Assembly (NCBI RefSeq): GCF_030378065.1
Contig: NZ_JAUCGJ010000003.1
Coordinates: forward strand, 62,001-126,000
DNA from: Candidatus Venteria ishoeyi
GTDB lineage: Bacteria > Pseudomonadota > Gammaproteobacteria > Beggiatoales > Beggiatoaceae
Length of the DNA: 64,000 bases
Direction: 5' to 3'
This document shows, in pieces, positions 127 to 23,258 of this stretch. The notes under the pieces were generated by a model. That model did no database searches and had not been told where the DNA came from. It saw only the letters and a list, made by a program, of their open reading frames with translations. The translations under genes and the position numbers were made by a program. The stretch's first letter is position 1. Each line of letters begins with the position of its first letter.

Positions 127-201
127 GCGGGTGTCGTATAATGGTTATTACCTTAGCTTCCCAAGCTAAAGATGACGGTTCGATTCCGTTCACCCGCTCC
201 A
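127..201 (+). tRNA. tRNA-Gly (anticodon CCC)
   Basis: A full cloverleaf can be drawn. The acceptor stem GCGGGTG (127-133) pairs with CACCCGC (191-197). The anticodon stem TTAGC/GCTAA encloses the loop TTCCCAA, so the anticodon is CCC. The T arm contains TTCGATT. The discriminator is T, as is usual for bacterial tRNA-Gly, and CCA is encoded at 199-201. The 3' end is inside the 91-bp direct repeat that bounds the island, so this tRNA is the integration target and stays intact at the left junction. Confidence 0.95.
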
Positions 202-2140: not shown

Positions 2141-2149
2141 AGTGGTTAC
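2141..2149 (-). repeat. Iteron-like 9-mer upstream of the primase gene
   Basis: AGTGGTTAC is the reverse complement of GTAACCACT, the unit repeated inside the 3' end of the primase gene. It lies between AATAAATA and TTATTTATT arms in the 5' region of the primase gene. This suggests the protein that binds the array may also act at its own promoter. A single 9-mer could be chance. Confidence 0.4.
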
Positions 2150-2229: not shown

Positions 2230-5200
2230 ATGACAACTGATAAATACATTCAATCTGCCATTGATGCAGAATTGGATAACATCAGCAGCAGCACTGGTGG
2301 GCGTAATAATGCCCTGAATAGTGCAGCTTTTGCGCTGGGAAGCTTATGTGCAGCTAACTGGAATGATTACACCCGACAACAGGCTGAAGATAATTTAATG
2401 CAAGCGGCGCTTGATGTTGAATTGCAGGAATCTGAAGCACGGGCAACCATTAAAAGCGGCCTGGATGATGGTGAACAAGAGCCACGGAAAAAGCCAGAAG
2501 CGCTGAACCAGCATCACAATAAAAAGCAGTTTTTCAAAACACCAGCAGATGCAGTGGGGGCATGGTCAACATTACCCGCTGCTGATTCCGATCACGCTTA
2601 TCTGCAACGTAAAAATATCCAGCCTTATATTGCCCGGCAAAATGGTGATGAACTCATTATCCCATTACAAACTGATTTTGCTGGTACGGTGACATCAGTG
2701 CAGCGCATTCTGCCAACCAGGAATAAATCAGGTACAGACAAGCTTTTTATTAAAGGAACGCAGAAAAAAGGCGCGTTTTGTCTAATCGGTGAAGTGGAGG
2801 AAGATAAGCCACTACTATTTTGTGAAGGTTACGCCACTGGCGCAAGTATTCATGAAGCCACCGGGCTGCCTGTTGTGGTTTGCTTTGATTCCGGCAATCT
2901 TCCAAGGGTTGCGCAGAAGTTACGCAATGAAACAAATCAATGCCCTTTTATTTATTGCGTGGATGCTGATGAAGCTGGGAAAAATGCAGCCAGGAAAGCG
3001 GTTAAAAAATCTGGTGGCCTTGATTGCATCCCTGATTTTTCAGGTATAAACAGCAAGGGAAATGATTTTAATGACCTGCATAATGTGGCAGGGCTAAATA
3101 CTGTTAAAAAACAAATCAGCGAAATGGTTGATCGTGTGGAATCTGGTTTGTTAAATGCTGGTTTTACGGGGCAATCAGATGATGATAAGCCCCAATTCAA
3201 GCTTGAAAACGGGAAATTGTACAGGTTACATTCTAAAAAAGATGAACTTGGCGTAAAGTCGGATTATATCTGTATTGGCAGCGCAATCCAGGTTAAAGCT
3301 GCCACTGTTGATATGCGCGGCGGCAATCACGGGCGTTTGTTGGTATTTTATGATCGTCAATATGAACGCCAGTTTGTCATGCCTATGGAAATGCTTGCCA
3401 GTGAAACTTCAAAGCTGGCAGGCGCATTATTAAATCGTGGTTATTGGTGTGTTGCTCCCCATCAAAAATTTATCCGTGATGGTATTGCAGAGTATGTTAA
3501 TTCAGTAAGACCACCGGAAACCTTGACCACAACTGAAAGCACTGGCTGGCATGATCATACTTTTGTGTTCACTGGCGGTGAAGTCATTGGTAATGATAAC
3601 AAGGTAATTTTTACCGGTGCGGATACCGATATTTACGCGGCACAAGGTACGCTTACTCAATGGCAACAAGCAGTAGCAGAGCTGTGTACAGGCAATTCCC
3701 GTTTACTGTTTTCAACCTCTCTTGCCTTTGCCGGGGTGTTGATGCCTTTGACTGGGGATGAAGGCGCAGGCACTAATATTTATGGTGATACCAGTACGGG
3801 CAAAACCACCACGCAACGTGCAGCGGCCTCTGTATGGGGCAGCCCTGAGCCGGGTGGTTTTATCTCAAAATGGAACGCCACGGCAACCGGGCTGGAAATC
3901 CAGGCAGTGCAACGCAATCACACGTTGTTTTGCATTGATGAACTGGGCGAAGTTGATCCGAAAATAGCGGGGCGTTTGATTTACCAGCTTGCCAGTGGCG
4001 TACAAAAAGGACGTGGACGGGCAGGTGATACCGGCATCGGGCTGGCGAATCTCAAAACCTGGAAAATGCCGTTTATATCCAGCGCGGAAAAAACCCTTGC
4101 CCAACATATTGAAGAAGCGGGGCAACGTCTATATGGCGGTCAGGCGGTACGCTGTGTAGATATTCCAGCGGATGCGGGTGCAGGACTTGGTGTGTTTGAG
4201 GATGTACACGGCACACCGGGCAACACAAAAGCGGCGGGGGCTGCTTTTTCAGAGCGCATCAAGGATGCCACGCATAAATTTTATGGCACTGCTGGACGCG
4301 CCTTTGTGCAAGCTTTATTAAAAATGGGAATAGCCAAAACCCTGGATTTTGTGACAAGTAAACGCACAGAATTTATGTTATGCCTACCAAGTGATGCCGG
4401 GAGCGTTCCCAGACGTGCAGCCAAGTTATTCAGTTTATCAGCAGCAGCTGGGGAACTTGCGATCCAGCTTAACATTTTACCCTGGCAACCCGGCACAGCA
4501 ATGGAAGCGGCAAAGCGTTGTTTTAATGACTGGCTGGCAGAAAATGGCACGGGCAACCCGGAAGAACAAGCGGCGCTGGCACAAGTGGCTTATTTTATCG
4601 AAACCAACCAGGAAAATTTCCGGCGCTGGAATGAAAAGGATGCCAGCAGCGGTGGACGTAATATATCGCACCAGGTGGGATACTTGTCTGAAGATGAAAA
4701 TGAATATTACATCATGCCCGAAATCTTCAAAAAAGATACCTGCAAGGGATACCGGCCTGAGTTTGTCTTAAAGCAATTAGATAAGCGCGGGATACTGGTT
4801 TATTCACCAAAGCGGCGGCAATTACAAATCAGGTTGCCAAATGCAAAAAAACCATCAAAGGTTTATGCAATTAAAACGGACTTTACAGAAAACGTACTGG
4901 ATACACTGGATACACTGGATACAACTATACATAAAGCTAATAATAACGGGGCTTCTAGCTGTAACCACCCTGTAGCCACTTCGTATCCAACGGGCGATTC
5001 TGTAACCACTGAAAGCCAGTCTTGTTCTGGACAGAACCATCCAGAGAAAAAATCTGTATCCACTGTAACCACTGCTGGAAATTCTGTATCCACAGAAAAC
5101 AGTAATGAAAACAATGTTGTACCCACTGTATCCAGTGTAACCACTATAAAAACAGGTTTGCCAAAAAAAACTTATCAAAAACCTTATGTGGGCAGCCCAA

Positions 5201-5262
5201 GCACTGCATTGGTTATGGATGAGGATTTTTATTCAGATAATGGTGGGGGGGCAATATCATGA
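2230..5262 (+). CDS. Toprim primase / DUF927 helicase replication protein
   Basis: This 1010-residue protein probably replicates the excised island. A Toprim-like domain is seen in LLFCEGYATGAS near residue 195 and YCVDADEAGKNA near 240, giving the E and DxD metal ligands. A DUF927 (phage/plasmid primase-helicase) module follows, with Walker A GDTSTGKTT near 518 and Walker B CIDELGE near 567. The C-terminal 100 residues are low in complexity (LDT and VTT/VST units) and correspond to a DNA repeat array. AGGAT lies 9 bases upstream of ATG 2230. The stop overlaps the next start (ATGA). This organisation is typical of replication proteins of P4-like islands. Confidence 0.85.
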   Translation: MTTDKYIQSAIDAELDNISSSTGGRNNALNSAAFALGSLCAANWNDYTRQQAEDNLMQAALDVELQESEARATIKSGLDDGEQEPRKKPEALNQHHNKKQFFKTPADAVGAWSTLPAADSDHAYLQRKNIQPYIARQNGDELIIPLQTDFAGTVTSVQRILPTRNKSGTDKLFIKGTQKKGAFCLIGEVEEDKPLLFCEGYATGASIHEATGLPVVVCFDSGNLPRVAQKLRNETNQCPFIYCVDADEAGKNAARKAVKKSGGLDCIPDFSGINSKGNDFNDLHNVAGLNTVKKQISEMVDRVESGLLNAGFTGQSDDDKPQFKLENGKLYRLHSKKDELGVKSDYICIGSAIQVKAATVDMRGGNHGRLLVFYDRQYERQFVMPMEMLASETSKLAGALLNRGYWCVAPHQKFIRDGIAEYVNSVRPPETLTTTESTGWHDHTFVFTGGEVIGNDNKVIFTGADTDIYAAQGTLTQWQQAVAELCTGNSRLLFSTSLAFAGVLMPLTGDEGAGTNIYGDTSTGKTTTQRAAASVWGSPEPGGFISKWNATATGLEIQAVQRNHTLFCIDELGEVDPKIAGRLIYQLASGVQKGRGRAGDTGIGLANLKTWKMPFISSAEKTLAQHIEEAGQRLYGGQAVRCVDIPADAGAGLGVFEDVHGTPGNTKAAGAAFSERIKDATHKFYGTAGRAFVQALLKMGIAKTLDFVTSKRTEFMLCLPSDAGSVPRRAAKLFSLSAAAGELAIQLNILPWQPGTAMEAAKRCFNDWLAENGTGNPEEQAALAQVAYFIETNQENFRRWNEKDASSGGRNISHQVGYLSEDENEYYIMPEIFKKDTCKGYRPEFVLKQLDKRGILVYSPKRRQLQIRLPNAKKPSKVYAIKTDFTENVLDTLDTLDTTIHKANNNGASSCNHPVATSYPTGDSVTTESQSCSGQNHPEKKSVSTVTTAGNSVSTENSNENNVVPTVSSVTTIKTGLPKKTYQKPYVGSPSTALVMDEDFYSDNGGGAIS
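4896..5145 (+). repeat. Array of 9-bp iteron-like repeats (candidate replication origin)
   Basis: At least 13 units of consensus GTA(T/A)CCA(C/G)T occur in 250 bp. Three head-to-tail ACTGGATAC copies (4896-4922) are inverted relative to the rest. Direct-orientation units start at 4961, 4972, 4983, 5002, 5056, 5065, 5086 and 5119, with three perfect tandem units filling 5119-5145. They lie within the primase reading frame, but the unit is kept in both orientations, which points to a DNA-level role such as binding of the encoded primase-helicase at an origin. Confidence 0.65.
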
Positions 5263-5459
5263 ACTTAACCCCAAAAGAACAGCGCAAATTAAACAGAGGG
5301 CGCATGTTGATTATGCGGAAAATTCATGTGGAGCGATTAAAGCGGTTTTTAGATCATGGCGGGAAACCACCTGGTGAATTAATGCCACACGAAAAAAAGC
5401 GTATTAATGCTTATATGGCTGTTGTTGAGCAAGATATTAAACAGCAGCGCTTACAGTAA
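5259..5459 (+). CDS. Small basic hypothetical protein
   Basis: A 66-residue, Lys/Arg-rich helical protein starting on the ATGA that ends the primase gene, so it is translationally coupled to it. No family is recognised. The charge and length suggest a nucleic-acid binding or accessory replication protein, but this is only inference. Confidence 0.6.
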   Translation: MNLTPKEQRKLNRGRMLIMRKIHVERLKRFLDHGGKPPGELMPHEKKRINAYMAVVEQDIKQQRLQ

Positions 5460-5564
5460 TTAACCAATGTCTGAACCTTGCATTTATGCGGGTTCAGGAT
5501 GCAGTCTGGCTAAATCAGCCAGCCTGCTTATATAGGTTTTATTGATTAGAACAAGGACAAAACA

Positions 5565-5960
5565 ATGCCATTCCAAAAAGGCCAGAGCGGAAACCCCAGC
5601 GGGAGACCACCGGGAATCCAGGATAAACGTGCAGCATTACGGGATTTGCTCGATCCCCATGCGGATGAACTGGTAAAGCAAGCTGTCAAGATGGCGCTGG
5701 AAGGTGACACGGCAGCATTAAAGCTGTGTCTTGATAGGTTGATCCCGCCAATGAAAACTGCACCAGTAAATATACCAGGTTTGGCTGTTGGCAGTCTGGC
5801 TGAACGCGGCGCGGCGGTACTGGATGCCCTGGGAGGTGGTGAAATAGAACCAGCCCAAGGTGCGGTGTTATTGTCTGCCTTGCAATCACAGGCACGGATT
5901 GTTGAGGTATCTGAAATTATTGAGCGGCTTGAGGTATTGGAAAATGAACGGCACAATTAA
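5565..5960 (+). CDS. DUF5681-type small protein
   Basis: A 131-residue protein beginning with the FQKGQSGNPSGRPPG segment diagnostic of DUF5681, a domain common in phage and island genomes and often near packaging genes. The rest is helical with a Gly/Ala-rich middle. No large terminase or portal gene is present here, so a packaging role cannot be supported from this locus. AAGGAC lies upstream of ATG 5565, and the stop is overlapped by the next gene. Confidence 0.65.
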   Translation: MPFQKGQSGNPSGRPPGIQDKRAALRDLLDPHADELVKQAVKMALEGDTAALKLCLDRLIPPMKTAPVNIPGLAVGSLAERGAAVLDALGGGEIEPAQGAVLLSALQSQARIVEVSEIIERLEVLENERHN

Positions 5961-6150
5961 AAGTAGGCTGGATGCCCTGGAAATAAAAAAAGGCACGGGT
6001 GATAATGCGCCGATCATCGTTTGCCTTAACCAGACTAAAGACCAGGCAGTAGCAGAATATGAAGCGCGTCACGGGGTTGTGGTTGGGGATAATGCTATTT
6101 GTATTCAATTCAAAGGCGTAGACGGGAGTGTGCATGAACAGCAGCATTAA
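5944..6150 (+). CDS. Small hypothetical protein, first of a tandem pair
   Basis: The 68-residue product starts at ATG 5944, inside the end of the DUF5681 gene and preceded by GAGG. The longer open frame back to 5860 has no site for initiation. Its N terminus MNGTIKSRLDALE matches that of the next gene (MNSSIKTRLKALE), so the two may be related by duplication. The C-terminal half resembles short phage proteins that bind unknown partners. Function unknown. Confidence 0.5.
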   Translation: MNGTIKSRLDALEIKKGTGDNAPIIVCLNQTKDQAVAEYEARHGVVVGDNAICIQFKGVDGSVHEQQH

Positions 6151-6406
6151 AACCCGGTTAAAGGCTTTGGAAGGAGAACAAGGTCAGTTCCTTGATATAT
6201 GGCTTAAACTCGAAGGTATAGTTATCTCAATCTCTTATTTTGACGGCGCAGACTTTGGCAAAGAAGCAGCACGGCAGCGCGTGAGCAAGTTAAGGACTCA
6301 GGAAGAATTCAGCGAGTTTATGCGCGATACTCTAAAGCTGGACACGATAAGTGCTGACCACAAAACCACCGCACTGGCGGTGCTTGCCAACAAGTTGCCG
6401 GGATAA
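6134..6406 (+). CDS. Small hypothetical protein, second of a tandem pair
   Basis: A 90-residue acidic helical protein. ATG 6134 is preferred over GTG 6128 because GGGAG lies at 6124-6128. It overlaps the preceding gene by 17 bp. The first 13 residues mirror those of the preceding protein and then the sequences diverge. It is the last plus-strand gene before the convergent restriction operon. Function unknown. Confidence 0.5.
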   Translation: MNSSIKTRLKALEGEQGQFLDIWLKLEGIVISISYFDGADFGKEAARQRVSKLRTQEEFSEFMRDTLKLDTISADHKTTALAVLANKLPG

Positions 6407-6591
6407 CCTCCCTTCAAATTAGCTTTATTCAATGGCACTAAGGCCTCTGCTTTGATGTTGCTGGCTTTATTAACAATGATTTAATACAGTCCATAATCTA
6501 TTTCAGAGTAGAATGGATTGCTTAATGGGTATAAAAAACCTATAAAAAATAGGTATAAAAAAATCAATTTCTTGCACATATCAAGCAGGAC

Positions 6592-6625
6592 ATGTATAAA
6601 TTTTTGGTATTTTTATACATATTTT
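6592..6625. terminator. Convergent (bidirectional) terminator
   Basis: ATGTATAAA (6592-6600) and TTTATACAT (6612-6620) form a 9-bp AT-rich hairpin with ATTTTT after it on the plus strand. It lies between the end of the plus-strand accessory genes and the end of the minus-strand fic gene. The surrounding 6407-6632 is AT-rich and holds no other gene. Confidence 0.45.
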
Positions 6626-6632
6626 TCACTGA

Positions 6633-7703
6633 TTACCTGATAAAAATTTTATATAAAGGTTTATTCAGATAATAGTTGCTTCTACCTATTTTCAACTTCT
6701 CCAAAAATCCAGCTTCGACCAATTTATCCAGATAACTGGTGGCTGTCGCACGGGAAACCCGCAAATCATCCATGACAAATTCTATTTTGGTGTAAGGATG
6801 CTTAAACAGATTATTTAGTAAATCCTGACTGTATACTTTAGGCAGTTCAGCGCGAATTCTATGCTTATAATCCTGCATGAGCTGCTTAATATCATGCACC
6901 AGGTGGATGGTTTTCTGTGCGGTATCGGCAATGCCCTTTAACATAAACAAAACCCATGATTCCCAATCATTGGCATCACGCACTTGCTGCAAGTATTGAT
7001 AATAATCGTCTTTGTTTTCTATTACATAACGGCTCAGATATAAAATAGGAAGTTGCAGCAAATCCTTACAGACCAGATACAAAACATTGATAATCCGCCC
7101 TGTTCTGCCGTTACCGTCATAAAACGGGTGGATGCTCTCAAATTGATGGTGAATAACCGCCATTTTAATCAGCGGATCAACGTCCGATAATTCATCATTA
7201 TTGATGTACTGTTCCAGATTATCCATTAAGCGGTTGATGTCATCGGGATGCTGCGGCGGGGTGTATACCGTTTCCCCGGTTCGCTGATTTTTCAGTGCCG
7301 TTCCCGCCTGCCTGCGAAAGCCTGCGTTATTGCCTTCCAGTTCAGACTGAATTTGCTTGATGTGGTTCAGCGTCAAAATTTTACCGTGGCGCACCAGTTC
7401 AAAGCCGGTTCTCAGGGCATTGGCGTAGTTTTGCACTTCCTTGGTGGCGGTGTTGGCAAATACTTCGGTTTGCAGTTCAGCCCTGAATAACGCATCCTGC
7501 GTGGTGATGATGTTTTCCACGGCTGAGCTATCCCGCGCTTCCTGCAAAGTCAGGGTGTTGATTAAGATAGTCTCATTGGGGATGGTTGCCCCAACGCCTT
7601 TTAATTCCGCCAGATAACGATGCGCCAGCGCTGCCTGTTTCAACACCGCTTTGGTTTCGAGTTCCAGAGCTGGGGGCAGTGCTGCGGGTTGCCAGTCAGA
7701 CAT
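6633..7703 (-). CDS. Fic family protein (class II, self-inhibited) in the R-M operon
   Basis: This 356-residue Fic enzyme would transfer AMP, or another nucleotide moiety, from a nucleotide to a protein hydroxyl. The catalytic motif HPFYDGNGRTGR lies near residues 190-201 and has the essential His, Asn and both Arg. The N-terminal helix carries SSAVEN (59-64), matching the (S/T)xxxE(G/N) inhibitory motif of class II Fic proteins. The C terminus is a winged-helix segment (LFKHPYTKIEFVMDDLRVSR) of the kind found in DNA-associated Fic proteins. The gene starts 3 bases after the stop of the Type ISP enzyme, so the two are co-transcribed. Fic genes often sit in restriction loci, but the target is unknown. 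Confidence 0.9.
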   Translation of the reverse strand: MSDWQPAALPPALELETKAVLKQAALAHRYLAELKGVGATIPNETILINTLTLQEARDSSAVENIITTQDALFRAELQTEVFANTATKEVQNYANALRTGFELVRHGKILTLNHIKQIQSELEGNNAGFRRQAGTALKNQRTGETVYTPPQHPDDINRLMDNLEQYINNDELSDVDPLIKMAVIHHQFESIHPFYDGNGRTGRIINVLYLVCKDLLQLPILYLSRYVIENKDDYYQYLQQVRDANDWESWVLFMLKGIADTAQKTIHLVHDIKQLMQDYKHRIRAELPKVYSQDLLNNLFKHPYTKIEFVMDDLRVSRATATSYLDKLVEAGFLEKLKIGRSNYYLNKPLYKIFIR

Positions 7704-7706
7704 GGC

Positions 7707-10700
7707 TTAAACCTGCTCATTCAAAGGCGGCAGACTTTCCACAATCCGCACGCTTTCCAGACTCACCCGCACGATACGTTTAACCAGATCGATAATATAA
7801 CGCGGGTCTTCCGACCAGTCATTAGGGTCATTTTTGATGCCGCTTTTTTTATCGATGGTGACCTGGTAGCGGTCTATGAGCCATTCCAATGCCGGTTTGC
7901 CGTTGACGATATAGTCATAAGCCTGCAAGGGAATATTACTTAAAATGACACGGCTGTTATAGATAAGCGTGGTTTTATCCTTTTCCTTGCCTTTTTTGGC
8001 AAACTGCATTTTCTGGACGCGGTAAAAACTGGTTTTATCTTCCAGCATATCCGCTGCACTTTCCTGCACCGGGTACGGGTCTATGCTTTCATAGTTGAGA
8101 TGCCAGTCGGCTAATTCCTGACCTGCCTTGCTGAATGCCCAAAAATCCTGGGCAAAGGGAATACGCGGCAGTTCTTTTTTGAGATTGGCGGCAAAACGGG
8201 TTTTGTATTCAGGGGAATGCATTAGCCCATAAACATAATAAAAAATGTCTTTTTTGCTGATGCTGGTGTCGGTATAGGTTTTTTGGAATTCAGCCAGAAT
8301 GCTGTCGGGGATGGCATCCTGTTTGACGTATTCATCAGCAATGCCAAACAGATCACCGCTACTTTCTATTTTTTCGTAGGTGTAGAGGGGGAAACCCTGA
8401 CCGCCAGAATGTTGCATATTTAAATCTGGTAATGTATCTACTATCAGTGCTGAAGAATCTTTTCCACCTGCCCCAATACCACTAACATAAATCACAAGAT
8501 TTTTTAATTCAGGCTTTGGGAAAATCCGAGGCATTTGATAACGTCTATCATTAAAATTTTTATCAAAATAAACCCATTGTTTGCAATAAGGGCGGTACAT
8601 ATCACATACGACTGATGATTTATTCAATGAATGGGTTATTTCTTTTCCTAAATTATTTTTTAAACTAACTGACCAGCTTATTTTAGTCGCATCGGTATTA
8701 ATGAATTTATCAACAGAAATACTCTTATTCTGCAAGGCTTTGTATTCAGCGACCTGTGCATTATAAAAATCAATCATTTGTTGCATATTATTTTCAAGTT
8801 GTTGCTTATTAAAATGATATGTCCAGGTATCACGACTTGTTGCAATCCCTCTTGAATAATCACTAAATATAACTTTTCCCGCTTTATCTTTTTTATCTCC
8901 CAATGATATGAATTTATCAAATGCAGGATCGCGCTGATTAATCCAGTCATGGGCAGCATTGGGCTTTAAGGTTTTCCAGTCAATCCCCTGTATGCTGTGA
9001 AAATCATCAATAATATTCAGCTTTTCTTTTTGACTGAGATAATCACCAATATCATGGTAAAACAGTTGGCAGTTTTTGCCTTTTCCTGGATTTTTGACCA
9101 ATAAAGTAATGGCAATAGGGGCGCGACTGCCTGAACCAAAAATTTTGCCACCTTCTTTGCGTGATGTTTCGCCTGATGTACGTTGATTACCCCGCAAGTT
9201 AAAACAATAAATGCTATTAAATTCATCGGTTAAAGACTGGCGCAAACCATCCATTGCGTTGCTGTCAATAAATGATCCATTGGTGACAAAGCAGACTATG
9301 CCTTTATCCGCAATCCGATCACTTGCCCAACGAATTGCCCGGATATAAGAATCATACAAACTATTTTTATTGGTGGCGCTGGAACAGGCAGCGTAAGTAT
9401 CCCGAATACCGCTATCCAAATTGGGATATTGGAGATTTTTATTATTGTCATTTTCGCTGGTTTGCTTTGCTGAATAGGGCGGATTGCCCACAATCACCTG
9501 TATCACTTGTTTATTTTGCTGTTTGGCGCGGTCGCTGTTGGCTGGCAGCATGGCATCAACCCAGCCCTGCATATCACCCCGGCCTTCCGTCATCTGGAAG
9601 GTGTCGGTTAAGACGATGCCGTTAAACGGCTGGTAATCTCCCCCCGCCACGCCATGATAAGCCGCTTCAATATTTACCGCCGCAATGTAATAAGCCAGCA
9701 ATACCAGTTCATTGGCATGGAGTTCTTGCTGATATTTGCGCTGTAAATCTTCAGGTTTGATTAAGCCGCTTTGCAGCAGACGCACCATAAACGTGCCCGT
9801 ACCAGTGAAGGGGTCGAGAATATGTACGCCTTCATCACTTAACCCCTTGCCAAACTCTTGCTGTAAGGCAGCATCGGTGCTGTGAATAATGAAATCCACC
9901 ACTTCAGTGGGGGTGTAAACAATGCCCAGACGTTCCGCCATGCGCGGGAAGGCAGCGCGAAAAAACTTATCATACAGTTCAACAATGATTTTTTGTTTGC
10001 CAGTGGCGTTGTCAATGCCTTTTGCGCGCATTTTGACGCTGGCATAAAATCTTTCCAGGGTGGCGGTTTCCTTGCGTAAAGATTGTTCGTGCAGCACGTC
10101 CAGCATGGCTTGCATGGCCTGGGATACGGGGTTGTGTTGGGTAAAGTCGTAATCTTCAAACAGGGCATCAAATACGGGTTGGGTAATCAGGTGTTGTGCC
10201 AGCATTTCTATGGCATCATCGGTGCTGATGGCGGGGTTCAGATTGTTTCGCAGACCTTGCAAGAAGGTATCAAAAGTGGCTTTGTGTTGGGGCAGGCTTT
10301 CCAGTAAGGCTTTAATGCGGCTGATGTGGCGTTCGGCAATGGCGGCAATATCCTTTGCCCAGTCTTCCCAATAACGGCGCTGTCCACATTTTTGCACGAT
10401 TTTGGCATAGATGGCATCGCGCCATTCGTCAATATGGGGAAAGTTCAGCACACCTTGCTGGCCTGTATCATTGCTTTTATTTGTATCGTTTTCTGATGGT
10501 GTGCCGCCGTCATCATCAGCATCCCCACCCGTTACGCCAATCACCTGGATATTATCAGGTTTGCTTTGGTTCAGTTCCAGTTTATTAACCGTGGCATTAA
10601 AGCGGTCATCATGGGCGCGTAAGGCTTGCAGCACCTGCCACACGACTTTGTATTTTTTATTGTCTCTTAAGGCTTCTTCCGGCGTTAAGTCTGCGGGTAT

Positions 10701-12554
10701 GCCAATGGGCAGAATAATATAACCGTATTGTTTGCCATCGGCTTTACGCATCACCCGGCCTACAGATTGCACCACGTCCACAACTGAATTGCGCGGGGTC
10801 AGGAACATAACGGCATCCAGCGCGGGTACGTCTACCCCTTCCGATAAACAACGGGCATTAGAGAGTATACGGCAGGTATTGCCTTGTGATTCCGCTTTAA
10901 GCCAGTCCAGGCGTTGATTACGCGCCAGGGCGTTAAAGGTGCCGTCTACGTGGTCAACTTCGCAGTGTAACAAGTTATCATTGTCTTCATGGGTCTGGTG
11001 GTATTCGCTGACTATATCGGCAAACTGGCTGGTAATTTGTTTGGATGCCTTGATATTTTGACAAAAAGCCACGGCGCGGCGCATGGGGCTGTTATCCCCT
11101 GCCAGCACGTTACCGTCCAGGTCACGCGCCATGCGTTTGGATAAGCCGTTCCAGCAGCCGGTGATTTTAACCGCGTCTTCCAGGTTTAATTGGTTATCGT
11201 CATCCGCCAGTTGCGTTTGAAAAGTTTTGCTGACATATTTTTCATCAACTGCCAGTACCATGACCTTGTAATCCGATAATAAGTTGCTGCTGACCGCTTC
11301 AGAGAAGCCTAAACGGTGGAACTCTTTACCATACAGGCTTTCATCATCCATAGAACACAGGCTGGCATTATTTTCCTGGGCTTTGCTTTTGGCGCTGTCA
11401 TCATACAGGCGCGGGGTTGCCGTCATATACAGGCGTTTTTTGCCCCGGACATAGTTTTCATCGTGAATGCGCACGAATTTGGATTCTTCTTTATCCGCCA
11501 GGGTTGCGCCTGTGGTGCGGTGGGCTTCATCGCAGATAATCAAATCAAATTCAGGGGTGTCGTATTGTTGCTGGGATTCAGCAATCACCTGGATGGATTG
11601 GTAGGTTGAAAACACAACATTTAACTGGCGTTTGCCTGCCTGTTTTATGTGGCTTGCCAGTTTTTCCGGGTCGGTGGTGGCTGGTAAGGCTAAATCATGG
11701 GTTTTAATATCTTCCTGGGTTTTACCGACTTTGGTATCAGAACACACGGTAAAGTTATGCAGGCTTAACTGGCATTCCGCTGACCATTCACGCAGGGTTT
11801 GCGATAACAGGGAAATGGACGGCACCAGAAACAAAACAAAGCCGTGATCCCCTGTACTTTTTGCCATTTCTTCGGCAATTTTTAATGAAGTAAAGGTTTT
11901 TCCCGTGCCACAAGCCATAATCAGCTTACCCCGGTCGGCCTGTTCAAAACCCGCCACCGTATTATCAACTGCTTTATGCAGGACTTCATTTTGTTTGCTG
12001 AAACCTGCTATCACCTTTTCCAGTGCACTTTGCTGGTGGGGGCGTAATTGTTTTTTGGGCTTTAAGCTCAGGTGACCAGGCTTTTCCCAGATAAACTGTT
12101 CCCAGTCTATAGGGCTTTGGGCTAAATCCTGAACGCGCAGGCGATTTACGGCAATTTGCTGGTTTTCCAGTGCTTTTTCTGCATTTTTGCCCCATTTATC
12201 TGTGGTGGAAACAATCAAACGGCTGCTGAACGGGGCTTTGCCGGATGCAGTAAAAAAGGAGTCTATATCTGATTTTTGCAGGCTGTGCGCAGGATCGTAA
12301 AACTTGCACTGGATGGCGCAATATTCCCCGGTATCCCGTTCCTGTGCCACTAAATCTATGCCGGTATCTCCCCCATCGCGTCCAGGCCAATCTGACCATA
12401 GCCAGACATCGCTGTATTTTTCCTGATACAGCGGATCGGTTTTTAAGTAGGCCAGCATTAAACGCTCGAATTTATCCCCCTGGTTGCGGGTGGATGTGGC
12501 TGTTTGCCGGTAGTCTTCCAGAACGTTGTGAATTGTGGTCATTTTGCGTGGCAT
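7707..12554 (-). CDS. Type ISP single-polypeptide restriction-modification enzyme (LlaGI-like)
   Basis: This 1615-residue protein combines restriction and modification in one chain. An Mrr-like PD-(D/E)xK nuclease is at the N terminus (GIDLVA with Asp near 67, then IQCKFY with Lys 84). A superfamily 2 helicase/translocase follows, with Walker A ACGTGKTF near 213-222 and IICDEAH near 337. After a coupler comes a gamma-type N6-adenine methylase with DPFTGTGTF near 908 and NPPY near 1023, then a C-terminal target-recognition region. Known Type ISP enzymes (LlaGI, LlaBIII) have the same order and are about 1580 residues long. All catalytic motifs look intact. Starts at 12554 or 12542 are possible, and neither has a strong ribosome binding site. 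Confidence 0.9.
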   Translation of the reverse strand: MPRKMTTIHNVLEDYRQTATSTRNQGDKFERLMLAYLKTDPLYQEKYSDVWLWSDWPGRDGGDTGIDLVAQERDTGEYCAIQCKFYDPAHSLQKSDIDSFFTASGKAPFSSRLIVSTTDKWGKNAEKALENQQIAVNRLRVQDLAQSPIDWEQFIWEKPGHLSLKPKKQLRPHQQSALEKVIAGFSKQNEVLHKAVDNTVAGFEQADRGKLIMACGTGKTFTSLKIAEEMAKSTGDHGFVLFLVPSISLLSQTLREWSAECQLSLHNFTVCSDTKVGKTQEDIKTHDLALPATTDPEKLASHIKQAGKRQLNVVFSTYQSIQVIAESQQQYDTPEFDLIICDEAHRTTGATLADKEESKFVRIHDENYVRGKKRLYMTATPRLYDDSAKSKAQENNASLCSMDDESLYGKEFHRLGFSEAVSSNLLSDYKVMVLAVDEKYVSKTFQTQLADDDNQLNLEDAVKITGCWNGLSKRMARDLDGNVLAGDNSPMRRAVAFCQNIKASKQITSQFADIVSEYHQTHEDNDNLLHCEVDHVDGTFNALARNQRLDWLKAESQGNTCRILSNARCLSEGVDVPALDAVMFLTPRNSVVDVVQSVGRVMRKADGKQYGYIILPIGIPADLTPEEALRDNKKYKVVWQVLQALRAHDDRFNATVNKLELNQSKPDNIQVIGVTGGDADDDGGTPSENDTNKSNDTGQQGVLNFPHIDEWRDAIYAKIVQKCGQRRYWEDWAKDIAAIAERHISRIKALLESLPQHKATFDTFLQGLRNNLNPAISTDDAIEMLAQHLITQPVFDALFEDYDFTQHNPVSQAMQAMLDVLHEQSLRKETATLERFYASVKMRAKGIDNATGKQKIIVELYDKFFRAAFPRMAERLGIVYTPTEVVDFIIHSTDAALQQEFGKGLSDEGVHILDPFTGTGTFMVRLLQSGLIKPEDLQRKYQQELHANELVLLAYYIAAVNIEAAYHGVAGGDYQPFNGIVLTDTFQMTEGRGDMQGWVDAMLPANSDRAKQQNKQVIQVIVGNPPYSAKQTSENDNNKNLQYPNLDSGIRDTYAACSSATNKNSLYDSYIRAIRWASDRIADKGIVCFVTNGSFIDSNAMDGLRQSLTDEFNSIYCFNLRGNQRTSGETSRKEGGKIFGSGSRAPIAITLLVKNPGKGKNCQLFYHDIGDYLSQKEKLNIIDDFHSIQGIDWKTLKPNAAHDWINQRDPAFDKFISLGDKKDKAGKVIFSDYSRGIATSRDTWTYHFNKQQLENNMQQMIDFYNAQVAEYKALQNKSISVDKFINTDATKISWSVSLKNNLGKEITHSLNKSSVVCDMYRPYCKQWVYFDKNFNDRRYQMPRIFPKPELKNLVIYVSGIGAGGKDSSALIVDTLPDLNMQHSGGQGFPLYTYEKIESSGDLFGIADEYVKQDAIPDSILAEFQKTYTDTSISKKDIFYYVYGLMHSPEYKTRFAANLKKELPRIPFAQDFWAFSKAGQELADWHLNYESIDPYPVQESAADMLEDKTSFYRVQKMQFAKKGKEKDKTTLIYNSRVILSNIPLQAYDYIVNGKPALEWLIDRYQVTIDKKSGIKNDPNDWSEDPRYIIDLVKRIVRVSLESVRIVESLPPLNEQV

Positions 12555-13247: not shown

Positions 13248-13496
13248 ATGAATAGTATAACAAAAAACAGGCAGGCTATTAAGCAGGCAAATAAATGGCG
13301 CACAGACTACAACCGGCACGGGCATGGCGGTGTTGTTGTGGTATTTAATGGTGTTGTGAATGGCTGGGTAAATAAGTTACGTAACCCTGAACAATGGCAG
13401 CCAGGCTGCATTGCTGTGGATGAACAGCAAGATACCTGGATTGCTTGTGGTGGTAATGCCCAAAGTGGTGCAGAACGCTGGGAGGCTGTGCAATGA
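13248..13496 (+). CDS. Hypothetical protein
   Basis: An 82-residue protein with a basic N terminus (KNRQAIKQANKWR) and a beta-rich remainder (GGVVVVFNGVVNGWV, WIACGGNAQ). GAAAGG precedes ATG 13248. Its stop overlaps the start of the membrane protein gene at 13493 by 4 bp, so the two are coupled. No family is recognised. Confidence 0.6.
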   Translation: MNSITKNRQAIKQANKWRTDYNRHGHGGVVVVFNGVVNGWVNKLRNPEQWQPGCIAVDEQQDTWIACGGNAQSGAERWEAVQ

Positions 13497-15043
13497 ATAC
13501 CATTTACGCATGGTTTTATCAGGCAATGCCGTTTATTTTAGCCGGTCTGTTTATATTGGGGCTTTATGCCTTCATGCGCACCAGAAAGCCGGGTAATGAA
13601 GCCATGCCCAGCAGCGTGGTAACTTTAACTGGTGTGGCTGGCGCATTGGCGGCGCTGGTCAGTATGGCGTTTTCCTATTCCTTTGCTGTCAGCCTGGGCG
13701 ACTCACTGTTTATGAAGCTGGCAATGGTGTTTCTATTCTTTTCCTGGCAGATAGCAGAATTTACAGCAGCCTTTTGGTTTGGGCATAGTCTCAATTCATT
13801 GAGCGTGTCAAAAACCATCATTGCTATGATCCTGTTTTTGGGTGGCGTGACTATCAACTGGACGGCGGGACAATCTTTTCTATCAGGGCGCATAGATGAT
13901 ATTGAATCTGAAAGATTACGCCAGAGTGATGCTTACCAATCAGCACAGGTGCAACGCCAAAATGCGCAGAATAAAGCCGCAAGTCTGGCAATTTCCCCAG
14001 CACAATATCAGGATGCAGCAACAGCAGTGCAGGCACTTGAATCAGACTTAAACCAATACAAAAACAGTCAGGCTAAAAACTCAGGCGGTGCCAGCGTGGG
14101 AACTGTCCAGGCAGTGGTTGCCCGGTATGGTTGCAATGGGTATTACAGTAAATACTGTGTCGAGCAAGAGCGCATAAAATCGGAAATGATCCAGCACCAG
14201 AAAACAATCCAGCAGTGGCAAGCGTACCAAGCGGCACAAAGTCACGCGCAGGGATTGGCAGCGCAACCACTACCCAGCGGCGCGACGGATGCAACCTTGC
14301 CTGGCATCAGAAACTTATCAGAAACGCTGGGGATTCCAGTTGCTACTGTGAAGGCATATTTCAACTCATTACTGGGCGCGGCTTGTGAGGTGGCGGCATT
14401 AGCCATGCTTTGGTTATTTGGCGGTTTTGTGGCGCAGATTCGCCAAGATGAAGGCCAGCAGATGCCACCGGCAACAGTCACTAGGCCGGGTGATCCTATT
14501 CCAGCCATGAGCAGTGGTGGCAGAATCAACACAGACGGGCTAATAGAAGGCCATGCCGGGGAATGTGTATTAAACGCCATGGCAACAAGCTGGCTGGATG
14601 TTAATTATCCTGACTGGTTGGATAACTTAAACCTGGGCGCATTAGCCTTGCCCGTAGTCAATGACTATAAGCCAATGCCTAAAGGCAATGACTCCAGTTC
14701 AATGCCTAATAAGCCAATGACTAAAGGCAATGAGTTAAGCCAAGCCGATGCTGAATTGATAGAAGATTATTTCCCAGGGATACTGGACAATTTAAGAAAG
14801 CAAGGCGGGGAAGCTGCAATACCTGGCTTTATTGAAGTTGCCAGACAAAAGAAAGCAGAAGGCAAGCCCATATCGGCACAAGGCTATGATTCTAAAGATA
14901 AGCGTACAGTAGGCGGTACTTATAACTGTGAGTCATGTGGTGATGAATTCAAGGCAAAAACAACCTGGCACCGTTTCTGTGCAGCGTGTGGCGCTGAACG
15001 TAAAAAAGGCGTTTTAAGAGCAAAGGCAAAAGGGAATAAATAA
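13493..15043 (+). CDS. Membrane protein with coiled coil and C-terminal zinc ribbon
   Basis: A 516-residue protein of unknown function. Three to four membrane helices occupy about residues 10-130 (for example MPFILAGLFILGLYAF and AMILFLGGVTIN). A Gln/Ala-rich helical region with a Cys pair follows (YGCNGYYSKYCVEQ). One more membrane helix lies near 290-315 (ACEVAALAMLWLFGG). The C-terminal third is soluble, contains short PMPKGN/PMTKGN repeats, and ends in a zinc ribbon (CESCGDEF, then CAACG). The architecture recalls phage or plasmid membrane proteins with DNA-contacting tails, but no family can be named. A terminator follows directly. Confidence 0.7.
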   Translation: MNTIYAWFYQAMPFILAGLFILGLYAFMRTRKPGNEAMPSSVVTLTGVAGALAALVSMAFSYSFAVSLGDSLFMKLAMVFLFFSWQIAEFTAAFWFGHSLNSLSVSKTIIAMILFLGGVTINWTAGQSFLSGRIDDIESERLRQSDAYQSAQVQRQNAQNKAASLAISPAQYQDAATAVQALESDLNQYKNSQAKNSGGASVGTVQAVVARYGCNGYYSKYCVEQERIKSEMIQHQKTIQQWQAYQAAQSHAQGLAAQPLPSGATDATLPGIRNLSETLGIPVATVKAYFNSLLGAACEVAALAMLWLFGGFVAQIRQDEGQQMPPATVTRPGDPIPAMSSGGRINTDGLIEGHAGECVLNAMATSWLDVNYPDWLDNLNLGALALPVVNDYKPMPKGNDSSSMPNKPMTKGNELSQADAELIEDYFPGILDNLRKQGGEAAIPGFIEVARQKKAEGKPISAQGYDSKDKRTVGGTYNCESCGDEFKAKTTWHRFCAACGAERKKGVLRAKAKGNK

Positions 15044-15089: not shown

Positions 15090-15323
15090 ATGTATAAAAA
15101 AACACAATCTCAAGCTTCACAAAAAAAATTGATGGTATTTATGCTGGTACTTTATTTATTTGAAATAACTTTATACTTTGTAAACAGTGCATTACCGTTG
15201 CTTTTCGGATTCGTTCACCCGCTCCACAATCTCATTTCAGAACGTTTCATAATATCCCACAAGCAAAGCAATAAAAGGGATTCCCGCCTTTCTGTTGTTT
15301 CACTCGACTATCAAGGATTTTAA
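15090..15323 (+). CDS. Small membrane peptide running through the right attachment repeat
   Basis: A 77-residue open frame with AAGGTGA well placed before ATG 15090. It has a hydrophobic helix (MVFMLVLYLFEITLYFV) followed by a tail encoded by the attachment repeat and the first bases of the insertion sequence. The tail is therefore produced by the junction and would differ in the excised circle. It could be a real island gene with a junction-dependent C terminus, or a chance frame. Confidence 0.35.
   Translation: MYKKTQSQASQKKLMVFMLVLYLFEITLYFVNSALPLLFGFVHPLHNLISERFIISHKQSNKRDSRLSVVSLDYQGF
15212..15302 (+). repeat. attR-type 91-bp direct repeat
   Basis: Exact copy of 187-277, including the last 11 bases of the tRNA-Gly acceptor and T arm plus CCA. 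It marks the right end of the island. The identity stops where the adjacent insertion sequence begins, so the original repeat may have been longer. Confidence 0.9.
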
Positions 15324-21096: not shown

Positions 21097-21290
21097 TGTG
21101 GTTTCCAATTTTGCCGGAGATGGATTTGCAGTCTTACATTTGGAACATTTCATTTCATTCTCCGTAAGCTTATAATGAAAACCAGCGTGAAGAAAAAGCG
21201 GTTTTTTCGTATTTCAAATCTCTAAAACCTACGAAACAGAAGCTTTTGCATAACACCAATTCATCCTATCAGTTTATTATTATCTCTTCT

Positions 21291-23258
21291 ATGCAACTAC
21301 TTAATTTCCAGGTTTCCAATTATCGCTCAATTAATGACAGCGGTTTAATTGATGTCAACCCCCGCACCATGCTGGTGGGGCGTAATGAAAGCGGCAAAAC
21401 CAACTTACTGTTGGCGCTGCAAAGTCTCAATCCGCCAGCAGGCATTAAAAAGCTGTCTTATGTTAAAGACTTTCCTCGCTGGCGTAATATTTCAGCGTAT
21501 CAGGATAGTCTGATTGTGGTGAAAACCCGCTGGGCTTTATCCACTGCGGAACAACAACAATTACTGGAAATTTTCCCCAGAACCGGATTTGGCGCAGAAC
21601 CCGTTACAGAACTAGTCATCAGCCGTGATTATACGACTAAACGTCAGATTCATTTTGTAAATCTGCCGCCACTGGAAATCGACAGCGCGGCAAGCGACAG
21701 GCAGCGCCGCAGCATTGAGCGCAGCATTAAAAACGCGCTGAAAGATGCGCTGGATAAACGCAGCATAGAAAAAGCTGGACGTGCCTTAAATGTGTTGAGT
21801 CATGAAATTGCAACCGGACAAGATGATCCTGCGGAGTGGGCGCTGCGGGTGTTGAAGGTCATCGGCGTGTTTCAGCGCTCCTTCGATAGCTTAAAATTGT
21901 CCTTGCCAGACAGTAGCAAAACGCAGTTGCAGGCGTTGAGCAAACATGCCGAGCAAATTGCGGCGGATGCCCCGCAACAAAAACAGGCGCGGATTTGGGT
22001 CAGTACAAACCTGCCGGTATTTGTGTATCTGAATGAATATCCAAAACTGGCAGGACATCAGAACTTAAAAGTTTTTCTGCAACACGCTGAGCAAAGTCGT
22101 ATGAGCGAGGCGGAGCAGAACTTTGCGCGTTTGTGCAAAGTCGCTGAACTGGAACCGGCAAAATTATTAAAATCGCTGCACAGCGATCATCAACAGCGAC
22201 AACTGCTGACCAACCGCGCCAGCGCAATTGTTACCCGCAAACTGCGTAAACTCTGGCGTGATCGTCCGTTAAAAGTACGCTTTCACGCCGATGCCGAACA
22301 TTTTGACACGCTGATTTCAGAACCTGATGATGTGTATGATGTTGAGGTCAATTTAGACGAGCGCAGCCGTGGTTTTCGCTGGTTCTTCTCCTTTTATATC
22401 ACTTTTGCCGCCGACACCACTGAGGGGCTGGCCAGTAATGCCATTGTGTTGCTGGATGAACCAGGTATGCATTTACACGCCCACGCACAGCGTGACTTGC
22501 TGGATCATTTTATTCACGATTTTGATTTACCAGTTTTATTTACCACCCATTCTCCATTTATGATTCCGCAGGAAGAAGTGAGTAGTGTACGCACCGTGGA
22601 TATTGATCCAGAGCACGGCACCTGGGTCAGTAATCAACCCCAGGCACGTCCTGCGCATTTAAAGCATGACAGTCGCACCCTGTTTCCCTTGCAGGCTGCG
22701 CTGGCTTATGAGCAAATCAACGCTTTGTTTGCGCAACGCCCGTGTTTATTGGTGCCTTCACTGGCAGAAGCGATCATGCTGGAAGCGATTTATGTCTATT
22801 TGCAGGAGCAAGGTAAAAGACTGCCAGCGCTGGACATCATACCTGGCGCAGGTACGCATAAAATCGCGCATATGGCCGCCTTATTAGGCGTACAAGCCGC
22901 GCAATTACGCATACTGGAAACCCACAAAATGGATTTAGCCCCAGACCATGTGGCTTTGCCCGCAAAGGCTAAGAATATTGCAGCCTTACTGCCTGATGAG
23001 TTATTGCATGAATGGGTTTGCCAGGCCCATAAGCAACTGCCGGGTGAACCGCCACCGCTATTGTATAAAGAAACCAGCGCAGACGGTTATCTGGATGCCT
23101 TAACGCCTTATGTACGGTTTTACCATGAGCGTGAGCAGGTTTTTCAGCATTTACAACTGGCAAAAATCTTTATGTTGGTGCTGGGGCAAAATCCACAGCA
23201 GGTTTTATCTGAAACAAATATCCAGTTATTTGAAAAATTTTTTCATATTGTCATATAA
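21291..23258 (+). CDS. OLD-like ABC-type ATPase with degenerate Toprim
   Basis: A 655-residue protein of the OLD/RecF type. The ATPase core is complete: Walker A GRNESGKT (30-37), a signature-like ERSRGFRWFFSF, Walker B VLLDEPGMHLH (about 385-395) and the H-loop TTHSPF near 417. The C-terminal part aligns with an OLD Toprim (CLLVPSLAEAIMLEA, then DIIPGAGTHKI). The metal-binding Glu of the usual LVEG is replaced (LVPS), which predicts loss of nuclease activity. ATG 21291 is chosen because the family starts there; a TTG-initiated frame reaches 21246. No clear ribosome binding site is present. A TATAAT at about 21171 may give it its own promoter. Confidence 0.8.
   Translation: MQLLNFQVSNYRSINDSGLIDVNPRTMLVGRNESGKTNLLLALQSLNPPAGIKKLSYVKDFPRWRNISAYQDSLIVVKTRWALSTAEQQQLLEIFPRTGFGAEPVTELVISRDYTTKRQIHFVNLPPLEIDSAASDRQRRSIERSIKNALKDALDKRSIEKAGRALNVLSHEIATGQDDPAEWALRVLKVIGVFQRSFDSLKLSLPDSSKTQLQALSKHAEQIAADAPQQKQARIWVSTNLPVFVYLNEYPKLAGHQNLKVFLQHAEQSRMSEAEQNFARLCKVAELEPAKLLKSLHSDHQQRQLLTNRASAIVTRKLRKLWRDRPLKVRFHADAEHFDTLISEPDDVYDVEVNLDERSRGFRWFFSFYITFAADTTEGLASNAIVLLDEPGMHLHAHAQRDLLDHFIHDFDLPVLFTTHSPFMIPQEEVSSVRTVDIDPEHGTWVSNQPQARPAHLKHDSRTLFPLQAALAYEQINALFAQRPCLLVPSLAEAIMLEAIYVYLQEQGKRLPALDIIPGAGTHKIAHMAALLGVQAAQLRILETHKMDLAPDHVALPAKAKNIAALLPDELLHEWVCQAHKQLPGEPPPLLYKETSADGYLDALTPYVRFYHEREQVFQHLQLAKIFMLVLGQNPQQVLSETNIQLFEKFFHIVI

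Follow-up and report, generated by a model that had tools for sequence, protein, structure and literature searches.

The window analysed here is a stretch of 64,000 nucleotides from Candidatus Venteria ishoeyi (contig NZ_JAUCGJ010000003.1, positions 62,001 to 126,000), and its left part holds an integrated island of about 15 kb in which an array of nine-base repeats, or iterons, lies within the reading frame of the replication initiator gene. The island occupies a tRNA-Gly (ccc) gene (127-201, plus strand, ARAGORN), its integration site, and is bounded by two identical 91-bp attachment repeats in direct orientation, of which the left (187-277) begins within the tRNA gene and overlaps its 3' end, and the right (15212-15302) marks the end of the island. 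Between them follow, on the plus strand, a tyrosine integrase (385-1617; Pfam Phage_integrase, Arm-DNA-bind_3 and Phage_int_M), an AlpA-type regulator (1842-2024; Phage_AlpA, 2.6e-16), the initiator, a primase-helicase (2230-5262), and the array (4896-5145). An integrated island with this gene order has the layout of a phage-inducible chromosomal island (PICI). The stop codon of the initiator overlaps, as ATGA, the start of a 66-residue open reading frame (ORF; 5259-5459, plus strand), for which a search of 41 other genomes of the family gave no match.

The initiator is a protein of 1010 residues with Toprim, DUF927 and HTH_56 domains, the only three that Pfam reports on it; a Rep_3 initiator domain is not among them. 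Its closest solved relatives are the Rep protein of SaPIbov1, a Staphylococcus aureus pathogenicity island (SaPI), and Cch of the staphylococcal cassette chromosome mec (SCCmec). A profile built from 20 homologues matches them at E 4.2e-47 (8tch) and E 1e-28 (5dgk), and they are also the top two structures found by Foldseek, which places the initiator in the Cch/SaPIbov1 Rep helicase family. Comparison with homologues shows that the frame carries a C-terminal extension through the array (4885-5262, plus strand), about 125 residues and the stop. AlphaFold2 confidence (predicted local distance difference test, pLDDT) is mostly 80-99 where the protein is folded but drops to about 31 from residue 896 onward, so that the tail is predicted to be disordered from about that residue. 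The tail is rich in Ser, Thr and Val, in keeping with the low complexity ascribed to this segment by the initial annotation, which had been made from the sequence alone.

A motif scan for GTAWCCAST with at most one mismatch finds twelve units in the array, eight of them exact, with three inverted and nine direct. A perfect inverted tandem triplet (4896-4922, minus strand) stands at the left end. It is followed by a spacer (4923-4960; 36 bp when the motif T's at its two ends are excluded, 64% AT) that separates the divergent iterons and may be a melting site. Six direct units on the plus strand come next (4961-5094, with starts at 4961, 4972, 5002, 5056, 5065 and 5086), and a direct triplet forms the far end (5119-5145, plus strand), perfectly tandem but composed of three differing units, GTACCCACT, GTATCCAGT and GTAACCACT. 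Exact copies of GTANCCAST number 14 in the window, against a mean of 1.6 and a maximum of 7 in 100 shuffles; ten lie in the array, one at 2141-2149 and three elsewhere, and no 250-bp stretch besides the array holds two. The initial annotation had claimed thirteen units in both orientations within the coding sequence, with perfect tandem triplets at each end. The array is indeed real and beyond chance and runs in both orientations, but the count is twelve at this threshold and only the left triplet is a perfect repeat.

Matches to the initiator (P0001) occur in 13 of the 57 genomes of relatives, its own counted, and the best comes from a Beggiatoa metagenome-assembled genome (MAG), at 50-54% identity depending on the alignment. 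There the gene stops at position 3861 of its locus (L006), directly after the helix-turn-helix (HTH) region, and 17 copies of GTACCCACT, in both orientations, lie beyond that stop at 3877-4393. Two mechanically called ORFs (163 and 125 residues) overlap this repeat stretch, which we nevertheless take to be non-coding. This relative therefore retains the 9-mer although it lacks the peptide, the reverse of the refuting outcome named in the initial annotation, in which homologues would encode a similar peptide without preserving the 9-mer. The frame ends no more than 21 codons past the HTH region, with at most one repeat before the stop, in all 32 other loci of a first comparison set. The longest extension in a second set is 29 codons with three units in frame (L234), against about 125 residues with twelve units in the window. 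The unusual feature is therefore the reading frame and not the array, which normally lies beyond the stop codon, a point that the initial annotation missed. Units inside the gene away from its end were also seen elsewhere: four in frame in the Toprim-DUF927 linker of L052 (6569-6658) and two within the initiator gene of L054 (7095-7112).

The codons of the tail point to constraint at the level of DNA, as had been proposed. Eight of the nine direct units share one codon phase, GTA-NCC-ACT or a near variant, and all eight in-frame copies keep GTA and the C of NCC, while the base that changes the amino acid takes all four letters. Under the codon usage of the core, such fixed synonymous bases have P ~4e-11 if the copies are independent; recent duplication could contribute to them. 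Tails reshuffled by codon to encode the same protein hold on average 0.29 units, with a maximum of 4 in 20,000, against 10 observed. Of the gaps other than nine, 5 of 6 in the window are multiples of three, whereas 17 other arrays have 30 such gaps among 107 (P 0.011; the counts omit four end gaps above 300 bp and the 311-bp end gap of the window itself), which hints that the frame is also kept.

Arrays of this kind are frequent after DUF927 genes. The commonest 9-mer, allowing one mismatch on both strands, was scored in the 800 bp after each gene, and an array was called significant when it exceeded every shuffle; shuffles resampled dinucleotide transitions and are not exact permutations. The first set, which includes the window, gave arrays in 16 of 33 loci against 18 of 371 control windows of the same loci (Fisher 7e-11), with controls judged on 20 shuffles and origin windows on 40, which favours the controls. 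A locus entered this set only if its best tblastn piece extended to residue 835, a filter that removed, among others, L031, L012, L047, L059, L205 (one of 13 plasmid or phage regions picked by hand) and L027 (whose contig ends 66 bases on). The second set, viral-contig loci found by the DUF927 motif only, gave 15 of 33 against 13 of 295 controls (Fisher 6e-10). Together, arrays follow the gene in 31 of 66 loci and appear in 31 of 666 control windows; the loci are partly related, so that the Fisher values overstate independence. The significant arrays often have units 9 bp apart and outer triplets in opposite orientation, and most share a TGTNNCACC-like core. This core was picked by eye on the first set and then applied to the second, where the 15 significant arrays fit it at a mean of 5.3 of 7 positions (null mean 3.1, maximum 3.8); poor fits exist, such as L050 with 3 of 7. 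As a yardstick, Escherichia coli CFT073 has nine repeats after a D5_N/DUF5906 primase gene against a shuffle maximum of five, and this locus is probably the EcCICFT073 of published PICI work.

The geometry of the array also recurs in relatives. The distance from the last inverted to the first direct unit is 37 bp from T to T (36 bp between) in the window, in three blocks of the Beggiatoa locus L026 and in L025, and these spacers differ in sequence. Three DUF927 initiator loci (L026, L027 and L025) lie in one Beggiatoa MAG, and the two with visible downstream DNA, L026 and L025, differ in their iterons (GTACCCACT in L026, CTGAAGCCAC in L025), which would be expected of origins that avoid cross-talk. 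When 37 loci are compared, the distances between divergent units cluster around 24-25, 35-37 and 46-48 bp, which hints at helical phasing with an apparent period of about 11 bp; this pattern is post hoc, ignores relatedness and was set against a null that jitters each distance. Convergent distances show no such period across loci.

We read the array, with a probability of about 0.85, as an iteron origin of the SaPI/PICI type captured by the extension of its own initiator gene. Comparison with homologues supports, at the level of sequence, the earlier proposal of an origin bound by the encoded protein. We infer that the island would excise from its tRNA site, that the C-terminal HTH domain of the primase-helicase would bind the iterons, and that AAA+ rings would assemble on the two oppositely oriented sets. 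The AT-rich spacer would then melt and replication start, in the manner reported for SaPI Rep and PICI Pri-Rep. The simplest route to the present gene would be loss of a stop codon immediately ahead of the first inverted triplet; with the separating stop missing, the frame runs through the array to the ATGA overlap. The tail, if translated, is most likely a disordered by-product of keeping the iteron DNA intact.

Several observations weigh against this interpretation. The spacer is only slightly richer in AT than its surroundings (0.64 against 0.58), and 35 of the 66 loci have no significant array in the 800 bp scored. HTH_56 stands barely above its cut-off in the window initiator (26.5 against 26.2 in Pfam), and no HTH_56 match is reported for L202 or L206. 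The G+C content of third codon positions is 0.30 in the tail and 0.40 in the core, and two reverse-strand ORFs also span the array; the open frame alone is therefore no proof of translation. Additionally, the missing stop comes from one genome only, where an assembly error is possible.

Three other explanations deserve weighing. The repeats could be a protein-level feature, a functional Ser/Thr/Val-rich tail with the DNA pattern as by-product, and the frame that stays open to the ATGA overlap, the shared codon phase and the gaps in multiples of three would all suit it. However, the closest relative has the 9-mer beyond a stop, synonymous positions are fixed while the amino-acid-changing one varies among all four bases, the encoded protein does not explain the number of units, and the tail is predicted to be disordered. 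A protein-level repeat was accordingly rejected on the DNA of the relative and the codon tests, and a functional tail is the least probable of the alternatives. Alternatively, the initiator might bind the array for a regulatory or incompatibility function, much as at the auxiliary element crr of P4, and the true origin would lie elsewhere. Second iteron clusters do exist in relatives, after the integrase in L058 (1426-1550) and L049 (1499-1591) and about 2 kb downstream of the initiator gene in L206 (8367-8487). Yet the first 16 kb of the window, enough to cover the whole island, contain no second cluster, and position and outer-triplet layout agree with the published origin position, which leaves this account hardly less improbable than the first.

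The array could also be a relic on an island that no longer replicates, the loss of the stop being a sign of decay. It is a single copy in a single genome, and no capsid or terminase gene or domain was recognised among the island proteins searched. Against decay, all 1010 codons of the initiator form an unbroken frame, the iterons and their spacing have been retained, and the attachment repeats at either end of the island are identical; the chance of a relic is slim, if a shade better than that of an auxiliary element. Lastly, the origin reading could be taken further, with initiator and origin as one dual-coded unit, L234 as an intermediate and L052 as an independent case. A nine-base iteron equals three codons, so that under such dual coding iteron number and tail length would change together. 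We regard this extension as doubtful, though it deserves a modest chance.

Known systems offer precedents for parts of this arrangement. The origins of PICIs and SaPIs are placed on the 3' side of rep, where an AT-rich region sits between two sets of iterons (PMC6092414, PMC7581432), and SaPI Rep recognises iterons directly downstream of its own gene through its C-terminal domain (PMC7581432). A plasmid test of one such two-set origin has been published (PMC6092414), and a conditional primase origin of this kind is in use (PMC11338833). The window shares with them a helicase of DUF927/Cch fold, iterons right after the C-terminal DNA-binding domain, opposite sets around a spacer, and an integrase and AlpA-type gene upstream. 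It differs in that the array follows the DNA-binding domain inside the initiator frame and not directly 3' of the gene, and in that a Toprim primase is fused to the helicase. In lambda and lambdoid phages, the iterons and an AT-rich tract are located within the coding region for O, the initiator that recognises them (PMC7466680). These origin repeats also stand within an initiator gene but in an unrelated setting; the window array is in a C-terminal extension of an AAA+ helicase and is likened to O by description only. Cch2 of SCCmec binds short direct repeats just downstream of its own gene through its C-terminal domain (PMC7581432). Cch (5dgk) is a structural homologue of the window initiator, whereas Cch2 belongs to another helicase family and its repeats are outside the gene. 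The satellite P4, likened to the window by description, likewise pairs a primase-helicase with short repeats. Its alpha protein acts on such repeats, sometimes at two sites. The alpha protein, ori and crr of P4 are mentioned in PMC6092414. We found no report of a SaPI/PICI-type origin inside its own initiator gene in the open-licence literature that was searched, which does not prove that none exists.

A single iteron stands ahead of the initiator gene (2141-2149, minus strand), an exact inverted unit, as the initial annotation stated; no other strong match lies beyond the array within the first 16 kb. The 11-mer CTGTAACCACT at this site has just two further copies in the window, at 5000 and 5063. 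The unit may be regulatory, but the proposed autoregulation through it finds no backing: a scan of 20 other loci found no unit immediately ahead of the initiator gene in any of them, and no plus-strand promoter-like site was found at 2141-2149 by a promoter scan whose results were at chance level. Plus-strand promoter-like sites near the array do not exceed the shuffle level, and 4850-6700 contains six terminator-like sites, every one on the minus strand. Further along the island lie a DUF5681 protein (5565-5960, plus strand; Pfam 8.1e-14), an adjacent SoFic-like Fic protein and single-chain Type ISP/IIG restriction-modification enzyme on the minus strand (6633-12554), and a 516-residue ORF (13493-15043) that has no Pfam or PADLOC match and contains a 13/27-bp tandem repeat (14659-14743). 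Outside the island, a 670-residue AAA ATPase (21246-23258) weakly matches the Old, AriA, GajA and PtuA defence models.

Scans for the repeat by itself led to other places. Two tandem units occur in 3 of 369 genomes of the class, the window's own included, and the reversed-pattern control matched four genomes, so that this pattern alone is no sign of origins. Three tandem units occur in seven viral loci, none of which has a relative of P0001 by tblastn. Short tandem arrays lie outside large genes in L034, L036 and L039, and scattered copies in L035, L037 and L038. The viral contigs L034 (3875-4010) and L039 (6551-6690) are almost the same; they bear GTACCCACT and GTTCCCACT arrays, and the part fetched shows no DUF927 relative.

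If initiator and origin do form one dual-coded unit, transcription and translation of the initiator would traverse its own origin, and the gain or loss of one stop codon would move the origin out of or into the gene. For many satellite-like elements, the comparison offers a simple rule by which to find origins, which is to look downstream of a DUF927 helicase for TGTNNCACC-like units arranged in opposite sets. What looked like a low-complexity protein tail becomes a predicted and directly testable origin, and the locus shows a route by which an origin can join the gene of its own initiator.
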